Shown here: positions 11,008 through 46,261 of the stretch, in pieces
Position numbering within the stretch: the stretch's first letter is position 1
How the letters are laid out: every line of letters starts with the position of its first letter
From: Candidatus Nitrosocosmicus oleophilus
GTDB lineage: Archaea; Thermoproteota; Nitrososphaeria; Nitrososphaerales; Nitrososphaeraceae
NCBI RefSeq assembly: GCF_000802205.1
Contig: NZ_CP012850.1
Location: forward strand, 3,126,587-3,190,586
Length of the DNA: 64,000 nucleotides
Reading direction: 5' to 3'
Program-made: the position numbers and the translations under genes
Notes under the pieces: model-generated
Told to the model about the DNA's origin: nothing
The model's input: the letters and a program-made list of their open reading frames with translations, nothing else
The model's database searches: none

Positions 11008-11718
11008 CTATTTTGAAAATAGATTGGAAAACTCATTAATCAAATTCCCAACATCCCCTCCTAATTGATTCAATAATTTACTTGAATTAGTATCGTTCTT
11101 AATTAGATTTTTAGCTTGGTTTACAAGTCCTAGGGAAGTATTTTTAGCTTGGTTCAAAGCACTTTTTAATTCATCAGGAGCTTGGTTTACAAGTCCTAGG
11201 GAAGTATTTTTAGCTTGGTTCAAAGCACTTTTTAATTCATCAGGAGCTTGGTTTACAAGTCCTAGGGAAGTATTTTTAGCTTGGTTCAAAGCACTTTTTA
11301 ATTCATCAGGAGCTTGGTTTACAAGTCCTAGGGAAGTATTTTTAGCTTGGTTTACAAGTCCTAGGGAAGTATTTTTAGCTTGGTTCAAAGCACTTTTTAA
11401 TTCATCAGGAGCTTGGTTTACAAGTCCTAGGGAAGTATTTTTAGCTTGGTTTACAAGTCCTAGGGAAGTATTTTTAGCTTGGTTTACAAGTCCTAGGGAA
11501 GTATTTTTAGCTTGGTTCAAAGCACTTTTTAATTCATCAGGAGCTTGGTTTACAAGTCCTAGGGAAGTATTTTTAGCTTGGTTAAAGGCCTCGTTGTTTA
11601 CATAATTGGTTCCTATATTTTGGGCATAGACTACAGGGGCCAAAGCCAACAAGGGCACTAAAATTCCCACCAAGAATAAGTTATTCAATGTTATTTTAAC
11701 AAAAAATCTCTGATTCAA
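11008..11718 (-). CDS. Secreted two-module tandem-repeat protein
   Basis: A 236-residue exported protein. After a signal peptide (residues 1-33, ending VVYAQ) residues 46-199 consist of 14 exact or near-exact 11-residue modules of two kinds, A = NQAKNTSLGLV and B = NQAPDELKSAL, in the order ABAAABAABABABA. A shorter C-terminal segment (about 200-236) ends the protein. Both modules begin NQA and have heptad-like hydrophobic spacing, so an elongated helical rod or solenoid is likely. N-x-S sites in each A module could be glycosylated. No family is recognised. The start is TTG. A surface or matrix role is inference. Confidence 0.75.
   Translation of the reverse strand: MNQRFFVKITLNNLFLVGILVPLLALAPVVYAQNIGTNYVNNEAFNQAKNTSLGLVNQAPDELKSALNQAKNTSLGLVNQAKNTSLGLVNQAKNTSLGLVNQAPDELKSALNQAKNTSLGLVNQAKNTSLGLVNQAPDELKSALNQAKNTSLGLVNQAPDELKSALNQAKNTSLGLVNQAPDELKSALNQAKNTSLGLVNQAKNLIKNDTNSSKLLNQLGGDVGNLINEFSNLFSK
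11122..11583 (-). repeat. 33-bp modular array, two unit types
   Basis: Fourteen contiguous 33-bp units encode the A and B modules of the secreted protein. Copies of the same type are essentially identical at the nucleotide level, including third codon positions, while A and B share only their first codons. This points to recent expansion or gene conversion by recombination or slippage. There are no spacers, so it is not a CRISPR array. Confidence 0.9.
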
Positions 11719-21429: not shown

Positions 21430-22080
21430 ATGAACAGTTCTACCAGATTATTGCTCCTATCTTTTATGATTATAGTTCTGTTTACTACCATTAGTATTAA
21501 TCATTTATCGTTTGTGAGGGGGGATGATGATGATGATGATAACGATTTCTCTGATAAAGATGTAATTCAAATTTGTTGCACATGGGGTTACGAATTAGCC
21601 GATGGCCTTTTAACATATTCGATAGAAACTGACGATGACGACGATGATCTCAAGGAAGCGGTAAGAAATGCAGTTGACTCTTGGAATGAGGCTCTGACTG
21701 GAATTACTTTGATTGAAACAGATGACAATGAAGATATCAAGATTTCTTTCAAAAATGATGGAAAAAGAATAGCTGGAAAAACTGTAAACTATTTTGACCA
21801 GTTTGGATTCATAAGACAATCTCATATAACAGTATCAGAAGAATCATACGATCGTGATTTTAGTTCCTCACAAATCGAGCAAATCACATTGCATGAGTTG
21901 GGTCATGTACTTGGTCTTGATCACGCCAACTTCAGAGGAAATCTAATGACTGAAAGAGTAGATATTGGCAGCCCGACAATCTCATCTTGTGAAATAGAAG
22001 CTGTGCATATAGCCAACGCCTGGAGGATAAATGGCGGAGACACGATGTATTTACCAAGAGAAAACTATATGGAATGTTAG
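21430..22080 (+). CDS. Secreted matrixin-like zinc metalloprotease
   Basis: A 216-residue exported protease. A signal peptide (residues 6-30) is followed by an acidic run of Asp and a peptidase M10/M12-type domain. The zinc site HELGHVLGLDH is at 155-165, and NLM at 171-173 can serve as the Met-turn. The strand KISFKND and FIRQSHITV before the zinc helix fit the matrixin layout. No pro-domain with a cysteine switch is visible. It could cleave surface or matrix proteins; note the large secreted repeat protein about 0.7 kb downstream. ATG start with a TATA-like element upstream. Confidence 0.85.
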   Translation: MNSSTRLLLLSFMIIVLFTTISINHLSFVRGDDDDDDNDFSDKDVIQICCTWGYELADGLLTYSIETDDDDDDLKEAVRNAVDSWNEALTGITLIETDDNEDIKISFKNDGKRIAGKTVNYFDQFGFIRQSHITVSEESYDRDFSSSQIEQITLHELGHVLGLDHANFRGNLMTERVDIGSPTISSCEIEAVHIANAWRINGGDTMYLPRENYMEC

Positions 22081-22788: not shown

Positions 22789-24765
22789 TTAGTTGTTATC
22801 TTCGCCATCTTCACCGTTGTCGCCATCTTCACCGTTGTCGCCATCTTCACCGTTGTCGCCATCTTCACCGTTGTCGCCATCTTCACCGTTGTCGCCATCA
22901 GATTGTCCAGATGATGCTGATTGTTTTTCGTTGTCGCCATTACTGCTGCCATCGTTGTCTCCGCTCTTGTCATTGTTACTGTCAGATTCTGTTGATGTTG
23001 ATTTGGAATCGCTGCTGTCAGAATCGCTGTCGCTGCTGCCTTCATTAGATGGTGCGGATCTTGCAGATTGTGTTTGGGCGCCATCATTATTGTTGTCGCC
23101 GCTATCATCATCTTCTTCCTCACTACCTGATCCTTGAGATTGACCGATTCCTTGGTTTGCAGAGTTGCCACCGCCACCGTTGCCGCCACTTTGACCTGCT
23201 ACGTTATCGCCAAAGTTTTGTTGGTTTTGTAAGTTGACATTGTTTCCTGAGCCTATTGAATCTCCACCAGAAACTACAAGGCTTCTTTGGTTTGAGGATT
23301 GTTCTTGGCCAATTGCTTGGTTTGCAGAGTTGCCGCTACCTTTACCGTTGCCGCCACTTTGACCTGCTACGTTATCGCCAAAGTTTTGTTGGTTTTGTAA
23401 GTTGAGGTTATTTCCAGATAGAATGGAATCTCCACCAGAAACTACAAGGCTTCTTTGGTTTGAGGATTGTTCTTGGCCAATTGCTTGGTTTGCAGAGTTG
23501 CCGCTGTATTTACCGTTGCCGCCACTTTGACCTATTGTGTTGTCGCCAAAGTTTTGTTGGTTTTGTAAGTTTGCATTATTACAAGATACAGTAGCATCTT
23601 CTCCTGAAACACATAATGCATTTTGGTTAGAGGATTGTGATTGACCGATTCCTTGGTTTGCAGAGTTGCCGCTACCTTTACCGTTGCCGCCACTTTGACC
23701 TGCTGTGTTGTCGCCAAAGTTTTGTTGGTTTTGGGCACTCAAGTTATTGCAGGATGCAGCTATACTCCCTCCAGCAACACATAATGCATTTTGGTTAGAG
23801 GATTGTGATTGACCGATTCCTTGGTTTGCAGAGTTGCCGCTACCTTTACCGTTGCCGCCACTTTGACCTGCTGTGTTGTCGCCAAAGTTTTGTTGGTTTT
23901 GGGCACTCAAGTTATTGCAGGACACATCTATATCTCCGCCAGCAACACATAATGCATTTTGGTTAGAGGATTGTGATTGACCGATTCCTTGGTTTGCAGA
24001 GTTGCCGCTACCTTTACCGTCGCCTCCTATTTGACCTGCTACGTTATCGCCAAAGTTTTGTTGGTTTTGTAAGTTTGCATTATTACAAGATAGAGCTACA
24101 TCCTCACCAGCAACACATAATGCATTTTGGTTAGAGGATTGTGATTGACCGATTCCTTGGTTTGCAGAGTTGCCGCTACCTTTACCGTCGCCTCCTATTT
24201 GACCTGCTACATTGTTTCCTTCATTTTCTTGGTTTTGTAAGTTGAGGTTATTTCCAGATAGAATGGAATCTTCACCAGAAACTACCAAGGTTCCTTGATT
24301 AGAGGATTGTTCTTGGCCAATTGCTTGGTCGATAGAGTTGCCGCTGTATTTACCGTCGCCTCCTATTTGACCTGCTACATTGTTTCCTTCATTTTCTTGG
24401 TTTTGTAAGTTGAGGTTATTACAGGCTATAAAAGTGCCATCGCCGCTTACACAAACTGCAACTTGACCTGAGGATTGTTCTTGGCCAATTGCTTGGTCGA
24501 TAGAGTTGCCGCTGTATTTACCGTCGCCTCCTATTTGACCTGCTACATTGTTTCCTTCATTTTCTTGGTTTTGTAAGTTCAAGTTGTTACAAGATATAAA
24601 AGTGTCAATTCCTGACAAACAAATTCCGAGCTGAGTAGCACCCTGTATTTGTTCTATGGATTGTGATGCCTCATTTTGCGCATATATATTACTTGGAGCA
24701 GCCATTAAAGCCGGTGCCAAAGTTAACATAATGAATATTGGTAGTATAGTTAGTAGGTATTTCAT
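22789..24765 (-). CDS. Large secreted Q/N/G-rich repeat protein
   Basis: A 658-residue exported protein. A signal peptide (residues 1-30, ending NIYAQ) leads directly into nine 56-residue repeats (31-533), a tenth partial repeat and an acidic Ser/Asp-rich tail (about 545-658) ending in five GDNGED units. Each repeat has a Q/S part (AIGQEQSSNQ), a hairpin-like part with two Cys ten residues apart (CVAG then SCNN), an N/Q part (NLQNQQNFGDN) and AGQ with a Gly-rich turn. In repeats 3, 8 and 9 both Cys are replaced together by Val and Gly. The spacing of Gln and Asn recalls curli-type amyloid repeats. Function is unknown; a fibrous surface or biofilm protein is my inference. Confidence 0.85.
   Translation of the reverse strand: MKYLLTILPIFIMLTLAPALMAAPSNIYAQNEASQSIEQIQGATQLGICLSGIDTFISCNNLNLQNQENEGNNVAGQIGGDGKYSGNSIDQAIGQEQSSGQVAVCVSGDGTFIACNNLNLQNQENEGNNVAGQIGGDGKYSGNSIDQAIGQEQSSNQGTLVVSGEDSILSGNNLNLQNQENEGNNVAGQIGGDGKGSGNSANQGIGQSQSSNQNALCVAGEDVALSCNNANLQNQQNFGDNVAGQIGGDGKGSGNSANQGIGQSQSSNQNALCVAGGDIDVSCNNLSAQNQQNFGDNTAGQSGGNGKGSGNSANQGIGQSQSSNQNALCVAGGSIAASCNNLSAQNQQNFGDNTAGQSGGNGKGSGNSANQGIGQSQSSNQNALCVSGEDATVSCNNANLQNQQNFGDNTIGQSGGNGKYSGNSANQAIGQEQSSNQRSLVVSGGDSILSGNNLNLQNQQNFGDNVAGQSGGNGKGSGNSANQAIGQEQSSNQRSLVVSGGDSIGSGNNVNLQNQQNFGDNVAGQSGGNGGGGNSANQGIGQSQGSGSEEEDDDSGDNNNDGAQTQSARSAPSNEGSSDSDSDSSDSKSTSTESDSNNDKSGDNDGSSNGDNEKQSASSGQSDGDNGEDGDNGEDGDNGEDGDNGEDGDNGEDGEDNN
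22800..22900 (-). repeat. 18-bp repeats coding the acidic GDNGED tail
   Basis: Five near-identical 18-bp units encode GDNGED at the C-terminus of the large secreted repeat protein. The acidic tail could bind calcium or hold the protein at the cell surface. Confidence 0.8.
23167..24675 (-). repeat. 168-bp tandem repeats, nine copies
   Basis: The coding repeats of the large secreted protein. Eight units are 168 bp and the ninth is 165 bp. Neighbouring copies are very similar, and sub-blocks appear exchanged between copies, as expected from repeated recombination within the array. Confidence 0.88.
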
Positions 24766-36718: not shown

Positions 36719-37309
36719 ATGTCAAAACAAGATAAAAGAGAAACATCTACCTCCACATCCAGTTCAACTACAAAAGATAATATTGATCAAGCAGTTCAAA
36801 TCAATAGTGAAATTTTCAATCGAGCTGTAGAAGAGAATACACAAAATCTGAACCAGGTATTTGATGAGTCCAAAAAAAGCATTGAAAGAAACATCGCAGA
36901 AGCAAAAAACCAAATCCCATTATACACAAAGTCAATAAATGAAGTTCAAGAGCAAGCTGTTCAAGCTACAAGAGATATCGCAGAAAACTACCTCGACTAT
37001 CAAAAACAAACCATTGATTCTTTTCAATCTATAGTAAAACCATATTTTGAAAATGCAAATAACCAGTTATGGAATAACCAAGATATATTTAGAAGATACC
37101 CAGAAGTATATTCAAAAATAGCCAATAACTATGCAGAAAATACAGTAGCTATTACCCGAGTATGGAACAATATCGCATTTTCAAATGTTGAAATAGTAAA
37201 AACAGTAATCAACAACACAAAAGAACAATCAAAGCAATTTGCAGAAATTGGAAAAAGAAACGTAAAAGTTTACGAGTCTTTCGAAAGAGAAAACAGAAAC
37301 AGTCTTTAA
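36719..37309 (+). CDS. Phasin-like coiled-coil protein
   Basis: A 196-residue, fully helical soluble protein. After a Ser/Thr-rich N-terminus (residues 1-20) it is one long amphipathic coiled coil with repeated NQ/DESKKSIERN/EVQEQAVQATRDIAENYLDYQ patterns and no cysteines. This is the general look of phasins (polyhydroxyalkanoate granule proteins) and of apolipoprotein-like helical proteins; some thaumarchaea carry PHA synthase genes, but none is in this window. Identification is by architecture only. ATG start with TATA about 30 nt upstream; a strong hairpin terminator follows. Confidence 0.6.
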   Translation: MSKQDKRETSTSTSSSTTKDNIDQAVQINSEIFNRAVEENTQNLNQVFDESKKSIERNIAEAKNQIPLYTKSINEVQEQAVQATRDIAENYLDYQKQTIDSFQSIVKPYFENANNQLWNNQDIFRRYPEVYSKIANNYAENTVAITRVWNNIAFSNVEIVKTVINNTKEQSKQFAEIGKRNVKVYESFERENRNSL

Positions 37310-37593: not shown

Positions 37594-37863
37594 ATGTCTA
37601 CGATAACTAAAACTCCAATTATTATTGCAGTGCTTGCTATCGCATCATTATTTGTTGCAGGCCCAGTCTCAATGAGCATGGATGAACTAAATGTTTACGC
37701 AAGCAAGAAATCAGACGCCGCATCACAAGGTCTATTACAGGGTCAATTGACTGACCAATCCAGTGAAGTCTTTTCAGAGAATGGATCCAGTACTGCTTCA
37801 GGTAATAACGTTGATTTATCGCTCAACCTAAATGATGGCCAAAACGCCTTAGGTCAACAATAA
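37594..37863 (+). CDS. Small secreted protein, Q/N/G repeat family, one repeat
   Basis: An 89-residue exported protein. A signal peptide (residues 8-36, ending VYAS) is followed by a single repeat unit related to those of the 658-residue repeat protein: SQGLLQGQLTDQSSEVFSEN, then TASGNNVDLSLNLNDGQ and the end NALGQQ. This member has no cysteine pair. The last codons and the T-rich tract just after the stop are shared with the paralogues ending at 38899 and 41128. ATG start. Surface role inferred. Confidence 0.7.
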   Translation: MSTITKTPIIIAVLAIASLFVAGPVSMSMDELNVYASKKSDAASQGLLQGQLTDQSSEVFSENGSSTASGNNVDLSLNLNDGQNALGQQ

Positions 37864-38371: not shown

Positions 38372-38899
38372 ATGTTTAGGTCAAATAATACAAAATCTAG
38401 CACAGTATTAATTGTAGTAGCACTAGCAACAGTAATGATAATGGGTCCCCAAATATCAAACTTGGGAGATGCACTTGCAAAACAAAAATACAACGATTGG
38501 GATGATTGTAGAGACGATCACAGTAAGAACTGGTGTAAGAAATATTTCAAGAATCATGACAAAGATGATGATGATGATGGAAATAGAGCATCACAAGGTA
38601 TTGGTCAAAGCCAATCATCAAAGCAGAACAGCCAAGTAGTTTCTGGTGGCGATACTGAAGATTCTGGAAACAACTTTAGCTTCCAAAACCAAGAAAATTC
38701 TGGAAACAACGCACTAGCACAAGACTCAGATGATGATGATGATGATGATGGAAATAGAGCATCACAAGGTATTGGTCAAAGCCAATCCTCAAGCCAAAAT
38801 AGTCAAGTAGTTTCTGGTGGAGATTCAATAGGCTCAGGAAACAACTTTAGCTTCCAAAACCAAGAAAATTCTGGAAACAACGCACTAGGACAACAATAA
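38372..38899 (+). CDS. Secreted protein, Q/N/G repeat family, two repeats
   Basis: A 175-residue exported protein. A signal peptide (residues 9-37, ending DALA) is followed by a charged segment with two Cys (WDDCRDDH, NWCKKY) and two copies of a unit: an Asp-rich run, NRASQGIGQSQSS, QNSQVVSGGD, SGNNFSFQNQENSGNNAL. The units are very close to repeats 8 and 9 of the 658-residue protein, including loss of both repeat cysteines. The end is NALGQQ, as in the paralogues at 37594 and 40847. The Asp runs could bind calcium. ATG start; TATA-like sequence 25-35 nt upstream. Confidence 0.75.
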   Translation: MFRSNNTKSSTVLIVVALATVMIMGPQISNLGDALAKQKYNDWDDCRDDHSKNWCKKYFKNHDKDDDDDGNRASQGIGQSQSSKQNSQVVSGGDTEDSGNNFSFQNQENSGNNALAQDSDDDDDDDGNRASQGIGQSQSSSQNSQVVSGGDSIGSGNNFSFQNQENSGNNALGQQ

Positions 38900-40846: not shown

Positions 40847-41128
40847 ATGATTATAATGAGTAACATAACAAAAAACTATAAAGCAGGAATCTTTACAATG
40901 TTTATTGCAGCAGCCCTAATAGGTTCAGTAGTAGCCTTTGGCGATAACATGGCATATGCAGGCGGAAAAAACAAGAAATCTAATGATGCAGAACAAGCAA
41001 TTGAACAAGGACAGGCAAGCGAACAAAATGCACAATGTGTATCTGGTGACTTCTCATTAATATGTGGAAATAACGTAGACTTGCAATTACAAGCCCAATT
41101 AGGCAATTTGGCATTAGGCCAACAATAA
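40847..41128 (+). CDS. Small secreted protein, Q/N/G repeat family, with Cys pair
   Basis: A 93-residue exported protein. A signal peptide (residues 10-38, ending MAYA) is followed by one repeat unit: EQAIEQGQASEQNAQCVSGD, a second Cys (LICGNN), VDLQLQAQLGN and the end ALGQQ. Unlike the members at 37594 and 38372 it keeps the paired Cys, nine residues apart. The stop is followed at once by a run of T, as in those paralogues. The ATG at the fourth codon (MSNITKNYK) is an alternative start. Confidence 0.72.
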   Translation: MIIMSNITKNYKAGIFTMFIAAALIGSVVAFGDNMAYAGGKNKKSNDAEQAIEQGQASEQNAQCVSGDFSLICGNNVDLQLQAQLGNLALGQQ

Positions 41129-44365: not shown

Positions 44366-44638
44366 TTATTGTCCGTATATATTATGGCCAAGATTTTCAC
44401 TGGCTGTTGCGTCTCCAGAGTTACAAGAATCAATGATACTTGCATTGGGTGAATAGCACTGTGCACCTTGTATGGATCTTTGTGTGTTTCCTAAGGATTG
44501 ATCAGTAGTACTACTACCACCTAAATCAAAACCCAAAAAGGCAAATGATAAATTATTGGTAGAAAGTGATACTGAAACCACCAGCAAGAGAGCAATAGAA
44601 GCTAGGACTATTGTATTCTTAAAAGGCTTTTTATGCAT
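44366..44638 (-). CDS. Small secreted protein, Q/N/G repeat family, Cys pair
   Basis: A 90-residue exported protein. A signal peptide (residues 8-33) is followed by LGGSSTTDQSLGNTQRSIQG, AQCYSP, a second Cys (DSCNSG) and an end with ENLGHNIYGQ. The order Q-segment, paired Cys, N/G segment and final GQ matches the repeat family at 22789, 37594, 38372 and 40847, but it is the most divergent intact member. A T-rich run follows the stop. ATG start. Confidence 0.65.
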   Translation of the reverse strand: MHKKPFKNTIVLASIALLLVVSVSLSTNNLSFAFLGFDLGGSSTTDQSLGNTQRSIQGAQCYSPNASIIDSCNSGDATASENLGHNIYGQ

Positions 44639-45559: not shown

Positions 45560-46261
45560 TTAAGGGTTGTCGAAGCAAAATGCAAAAGCCTGAAACCTCA
45601 TCGTGTCACCAGTATTGCCTTGTGCATCCACCCTGAATGTATCTCCGCTCGGAGGTATTTGTTCACGGATCTGTTTAATGGAGCCAGGATTATTTGCATT
45701 AGCTACAGAATGAAATCCAGAAATTAGACTATCACCTGTGTTGCATTAAGCATCAGATGGTGCAGTATTTGGTGAAATCACTACAACAAGATTCCCATTA
45801 ACCGTATAGATTTTACCTCCAACAGATTGGAGTCCGGCTGCTCCTGTTGCTCCAGTTTCACCTTTTGGCCCTTGTGATCCTACCGCACCTGTTGCTCCAG
45901 TTTCACCTTTTGGCCCTTGTGATCCTACCGCACCTGTTGCTCCAGTTTCACCTTTTGGCCCTTGTGATCCTATTGGTCCAATGAAACCTTGTGGGCCCTG
46001 AGCCCCATCTGGTTCCATAGGTCCAGTCGCACCATCTTTACCAGGTTCACCTTGAGGTCCTGTAGTACCGGTAGCACCATCTTTACCTGGTATTCCTTGC
46101 GGACCACGTTCACCTTGTGGTCCAAGAGGTCCTTGTTCTCCCGGAACAGAGGTACCTATACTTACTGAAGATAGATTGTTATAACTTAAAGAGGTCCTTT
46201 CCCCAGACACACACATACTATTTTGATTAGTTACTTGGGAACTTGATTTGTTCTTTATTAC
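45560..46261 (-). pseudogene. Collagen-like protein with repeat-family N-terminus, truncated
   Basis: The intact frame 45746-46216 encodes 156 residues: CVSGERTSLSYNN, a collagen-like Gly-x-y region (about residues 25-125, with GAVGSQGPKGETGAT repeated as 45-bp units) and VGGKIYTVNGNLVVV. After its TAA (45746-45748) the same frame continues for 61 more codons (CNTGDSLISGFHSV to FCFDNP), the likely original C-terminal domain. Upstream the frame is open to 46261 and reads SSSQVTNQNSM, which matches the Q/N/G repeat family, but there is no start codon or signal peptide; a TAG precedes it. So it is a secreted chimera that lost its N-terminus and gained a stop. Confidence 0.75.

Follow-up and report, generated by a model that had tools for sequence, protein, structure and literature searches.

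Positions 22789-24765 on the minus strand of the window (the whole 64,000-nucleotide stretch of a soil archaeon analysed here) encode a secreted, Gln/Asn/Gly-rich protein of 658 residues, which belongs to a multigene family restricted to Candidatus Nitrosocosmicus and in which each repeat unit carries either both of two cysteines or neither. The family is best read, with a probability of roughly one half, as secreted structural proteins of β-solenoid or cross-β type, with optional disulfides within the layers, that belong to the cell wall or the biofilm matrix in this genus.

The nine-repeat protein and its family

The coordinates of the gene in the list of open reading frames are exactly those of an earlier sequence-only reading, and most of what was described there holds, with some adjustments (Table 1). 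Nine contiguous repeats do follow the signal peptide, starting at residue 37, but splitting at the repeat motif gives eight repeats of 56 residues and a ninth of 55, not 56. At the DNA level the gene has a 168-bp period (TRF score 1393). The 12 cysteines form six C-x9-C pairs, two residues in each of repeats 1, 2 and 4–7 as had been claimed; in repeats 3, 8 and 9 the two places are taken by V and G. Repeat 1 reads CLSG and not CV.G. The acidic GDNGED tail was also recovered, and the DNA at 22802-22899 is an array of 5.4 copies of an 18-bp unit (TRF).

Two further closed genomes have orthologs of the gene in the corresponding location, and the flanking genes for a matrixin-like protease, a small zinc-finger-like protein, a hydrolase and a secreted helical protein are conserved there. 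The first 50 residues, including the signal peptide, are 84–90% identical to those of orthologs (tblastn); the tails of orthologs L054 and L055 are acidic too, but differ in sequence from that of the nine-repeat protein. The adjoining gene at 21430-22080 (+), kept there in the two other genomes, encodes a secreted matrixin-type (M10) metalloprotease that could process surface proteins.

Table 1. Features of the nine-repeat gene and family members in the window
Feature	Position	Strand	Basis
Sec-type signal peptide, about residues 1–29, MKYLLTILPIFIMLTLAPALMAAPSNIYA	24679..24765	(-)	read by eye
Repeat 1, C-type (CLSG...SCNN)	24490..24657	(-)	motif split
Repeat 2, C-type	24322..24489	(-)	motif split
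Repeat 3, V-type (VVSG...SGNN), at the DNA level a mosaic of segments like those of repeats 2, 8 and 4	24154..24321	(-)	motif split and codon comparison
Repeat 4, C-type	23986..24153	(-)	motif split
Repeat 5, C-type	23818..23985	(-)	motif split
Repeat 6, C-type	23650..23817	(-)	motif split
Repeat 7, C-type	23482..23649	(-)	motif split
Repeat 8, V-type	23314..23481	(-)	motif split
Repeat 9, V-type, 55 aa	23149..23313	(-)	motif split
Low-complexity acidic tail of 119 residues with five GDNGED units and a net charge of -34	22792..23148	(-)	TRF and composition
Paralog, single V-type unit	37594..37863	(+)	unit profile
Paralog, two V-type units, poly-Asp linkers	38372..38899	(+)	unit profile
Paralog, single unit, Cys pair with x8 spacing (CVSGDFSLIC)	40847..41128	(+)	unit profile
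Divergent paralog, single C-type unit	44366..44638	(-)	unit profile
Broken copy without a signal peptide: one-Cys half unit (CVSG...SYNN) joined to collagen-like Gly-x-y	45746..46261	(-)	

The unit of the nine-repeat protein matches 79 stretches in its own genome (one contig of 3,430,706 bases), and the unit profile assigns 103 units to about 45 open reading frames with at least one unit each, a few of which are fragments. Four further family members and one broken copy lie within the window. The number of repeats per protein ranges from one to ten. Most members have a signal peptide and stop no more than two residues from the final Gln of their last unit; acidic or Ser-Asp tails are found in a few. 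Some fuse the unit to collagen-like Gly-x-y sequence (L046) or to other domains; in L028, L045 and L048 the partners are a Ser/Asp-rich stalk, a Cys-containing domain and β-helix-like repeats, and these fusions suggest that the unit may serve as a docking module. In the broken copy in the window the second cysteine is replaced by Tyr, and an intact relative is located at about G000:C1:2791.4-2792.2 kb (L046). One hit in the same locus, L046:855-1850, was judged a false positive.

A search of genomes of the class was made with a 22-row unit profile and found the family in all 14 Ca. Nitrosocosmicus genomes and in 0 of 286 genomes from 68 other genera. A scan of 84,980 species genomes with a four-repeat protein as query returned 31 loci, 30 of them titled Ca. 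Nitrosocosmicus and one a MAG titled Nitrosopumilus. Sequence searches of Pfam, NCBIfam, PHROGs and the PDB gave no real match to the family; PDB matches to TCR-beta chains were dismissed as short chance alignments.

Paired cysteines and two unit types

The notion that the cysteines of a repeat go together extends from the nine-repeat protein to the family as a whole. Both are present in 140 of 222 distinct complete units, including one (the paralog at 40847) with the second cysteine one place earlier, and both are absent from the other 82; no complete unit has a single cysteine, a pattern that chance would hardly produce. Independent loss of one cysteine, which would speak against pairing, was looked for family-wide, and units with one cysteine occur only in broken fragments. 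Apparent cases proved on checking to be units cut by contig ends, MAG fragments with frameshifts, the Cys-shifted unit at 40847 and the broken copy at 45746-46261.

Because 14 single-unit paralogs have exactly two mature cysteines each, the partner of a cysteine need not sit in another repeat, and the seven two-unit paralogs of the ‘Cv’ type have no mature cysteine beyond the pair. Judged from these sequences, the simplest reading would be a bond within the unit, or one between molecules. The two cysteines are placed on the same, conserved strand face on either side of a turn, and from their positions may be close enough to bond. The intra-repeat disulfide put forward by the sequence-only reading is in keeping with the pairing, the single-unit paralogs and the shared face at the turn, but the three cysteine-free repeats of this protein are not three joint losses. 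Two DsbA-like extracytoplasmic thioredoxins with signal or anchor sequences are encoded in the genome and could oxidise the pairs; VKOR was not found there. Since V-type units exist, a disulfide latch would be dispensable.

As for the origin of the two types, the V-type repeats of the nine-repeat protein share the codons GTA and GGA. Repeat 3 is codon-identical to repeat 2 at positions 1–6 and 24–47, to repeat 8 at positions 13–16 and 18–31, and to repeat 4 at positions 38–56, a mosaic which indicates that repeat 3 received its V-type segment whole, by copying. Positions 11–27 differ as a block between C- and V-type units throughout the family. Cysteines ‘gained or lost together’ is therefore correct as a pattern, but in this protein it reflects the copying of one V-type cassette, not three losses. 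A unit tree built without the Cys columns, which is weak because the units are short, has about 10 type changes in its best version, all of them joint, with 3 on well-supported branches. The order of types is also conserved: among the 33 members with at least three units, the first unit is C-type in 31, the second is C-type in 31 and the third is V-type in 24, and the order C, C, V is kept in syntenic orthologs.

Predicted fold and comparison with known systems

Odd positions of the unit are near-invariant and even positions variable in a strict alternation (permutation P<1e-4), the pattern to be expected where odd-numbered side chains point into the core of a β layer. The cysteines occupy odd positions too (13 and 23), one on either side of the turn. 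The structures predicted by AlphaFold2 are all-β both for repeats 1–4 (pLDDT 68, pTM 0.57) and for all nine repeats, where a 56-residue period is seen and confidence is no better than with four (pLDDT 54, pTM 0.46). These all-β models, of low to moderate confidence, agree with the sequence-only reading. In Foldseek searches, the top match of the four-repeat model is FapC (PDB code 9u4u; E 2.3e-3, prob 0.10, not significant), followed by other β-helices, and the nine-repeat model has only weak β-helix matches; no PDB match of either model reaches E 0.001, with TM-scores of about 0.1.

Based on these features, we propose that each 56-residue repeat would form one coil or layer consisting of two long β-strands (approximately positions 1–14 and 23–41) with a short turn between them, and that a Gly/Asp-rich loop would lead from one layer into the next. 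I1, Q3, Q5, Q9, N25, Q29, Q31, N33, G35, N37 and Q41 would point inward and stack as Gln/Asn ladders, like those of β-solenoids and functional amyloids. In a C-type layer, the two cysteines would meet across the turn and a disulfide would latch the layer, and a V-type layer would be unlatched. The layers may stack in parallel, and the proteins may have amyloid character and self-assemble. The acidic tail and poly-Asp loops would remain outside. Poly-Asp loops between units occur in several paralogs (loci L028–L050; in the window, 38372-38899) and Gly/Lys loops in others, and ionic or calcium contacts between layers are possible at these sites.

The curli subunits CsgA and CsgB resemble the family in being secreted, in their Gln/Asn/Gly repeats with alternating conserved positions, and in the β-solenoid character predicted for the family, but their repeats have 22–23 residues and the pattern S-x5-Q-x-G-x2-N-x-A-x3-Q, compared with 56 residues and a different spacing in the family unit. 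Membership was rejected: the Curlin_rpt profile (PF07012) matches in 0 of 21 genomes at E<=0.1, the organism's own included, with a positive E. coli control, and hmmscan finds no Curlin_rpt in the nine-repeat protein at E<=1, where CsgA and CsgB score 1e-24 or better. Alignment of the family unit with CsgA/CsgB repeats in hhalign gives a probability of 1.6%. The link to curli that had been drawn from the sequence is consequently at most an analogy. RTX proteins, another suggested relative, were likewise rejected, as the nonapeptide consensus GGxGxDxUx is absent from the nine-repeat protein.

The functional amyloid FapC of Pseudomonas has imperfect Gln/Asn-rich repeats, each of which is reported to make up one cross-β layer with stacked Asn/Gln hydrogen bonds (PDB code 9u4u; PMC12392863). 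Its FapBC repeats are of 37–39 residues, almost always three in number, and it is encoded in the fap operon, in contrast to the one to ten 56-residue repeats of the family. The unit profile has no sequence match to FapC chains in the PDB, and the FapC paper makes no mention of cysteines or disulfides (PMC12392863), whereas each C-type unit has a cysteine pair. The family may work like FapC or curli, though it is a member of neither.

Among archaea, the sheath protein SH of Methanospirillum hungatei is an extracellular, amyloid-like β-arch protein with proposed disulfides that builds a cell cover (PMC10593813). The family itself is not described in the literature searched, but the earlier remark that no archaeal system of this form had been described needs qualification in view of this amyloid-like sheath. 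SH is described as having a cap domain and an amyloid-like domain, with a proposed connection between adjacent rings through two cysteines (PMC10593813). The family differs from that description in its multiple repeats with a cysteine pair per repeat, and has no sequence match to a PDB chain.

A possible place in the wall or biofilm matrix

Nitrosocosmicus is reported to lack S-layer genes and to have a thick wall, of about 18 nm, with hair-like structures of about 30 nm, whose composition was left undetermined (PMC11559005). Of the ammonia-oxidizing archaea compared in a biofilm study, the genus is reported to establish biofilms soonest; it attaches in the form of aggregates and does not have the adhesins found in strains with an S-layer. 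The text on the biofilm transcriptome, that of N. franklandianus, does not name the family (PMC12448741). A role in the wall or matrix would fit the secretion, copy number, genus restriction and predicted fold of the family, and we infer it on these grounds. The approximately 45 proteins are good candidates for wall or biofilm material of the genus, and a concrete set to seek in wall and biofilm proteomics. In other ammonia-oxidizing archaea, S-layer proteins are the main outer-cover protein, a role the family might share; the S-layer is published as absent from Nitrosocosmicus (PMC11559005), and the family is absent from other genera. More speculatively, and in our estimate rather unlikely, the cover of this S-layer-free genus would itself be built from a genus-specific multigene cross-β family of Gln/Asn ladders, with latched and unlatched layers in an inherited order. 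If true, this would be a cell-wall type not previously described in archaea.

Other explanations were weighed against the structural reading. The members could be secreted adhesins or matrix proteins that are soluble or disordered in the absence of bound polysaccharide, their Q/N/G richness reflecting low complexity and not a cross-β core. The low pLDDT of the nine-repeat model, the Gly/Asp-rich loops and the weak Foldseek scores agree with this, but a strict odd/even alternation and invariant Q/N over dozens of paralogs are unexpected in disordered sequence and both models are all-β, so that we regard it as unlikely. A variable surface coat for evading viruses or grazers, in which the diversity of repeats and types is the point, would account for some 45 paralogs, varying repeat number and conversion. 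Type order and locus are however conserved across species, and neither IMG/VR nor PHROGs yielded a viral homologue (no relative in the former, no real match in the latter), which leaves this explanation with little likelihood.

The cysteines invite two further alternatives. Joint presence and absence would be structurally meaningless if two ancient unit types had simply spread by duplication and conversion, as the V-type cassette in the mosaic repeat 3, the block difference at positions 11–27 and only three well-supported independent changes might imply. On the other hand, all 10 changes in the best tree are joint and none of the 222 intact units has a single cysteine; Cys to Val takes at least two base changes and Cys to Gly one, which means that units with a single cysteine ought to be seen if they were tolerated, and we consider this explanation quite improbable. 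The pair might instead bind a metal such as copper, given that the two cysteines are near each other in sequence and that ammonia-oxidizing archaea rely heavily on secreted copper proteins. This is the least probable of the explanations considered, as the unit alignment shows no conservation of His or Met around the cysteines and V and G replace the pair in many functional-looking units. The C- and V-type units also offer a natural experiment on what a disulfide adds to a stacked β layer.

Two other genes in the window may be mentioned. A phasin-like helical protein (weak Pfam match) is encoded at 36719-37309 (+), near several family members. A secreted protein of 236 residues at 11008-11718 (-) is built of alternating 11-residue repeats, NQAKNTSLGLV and NQAPDELKSAL, the first kind of which contains N-x-S/T sites.
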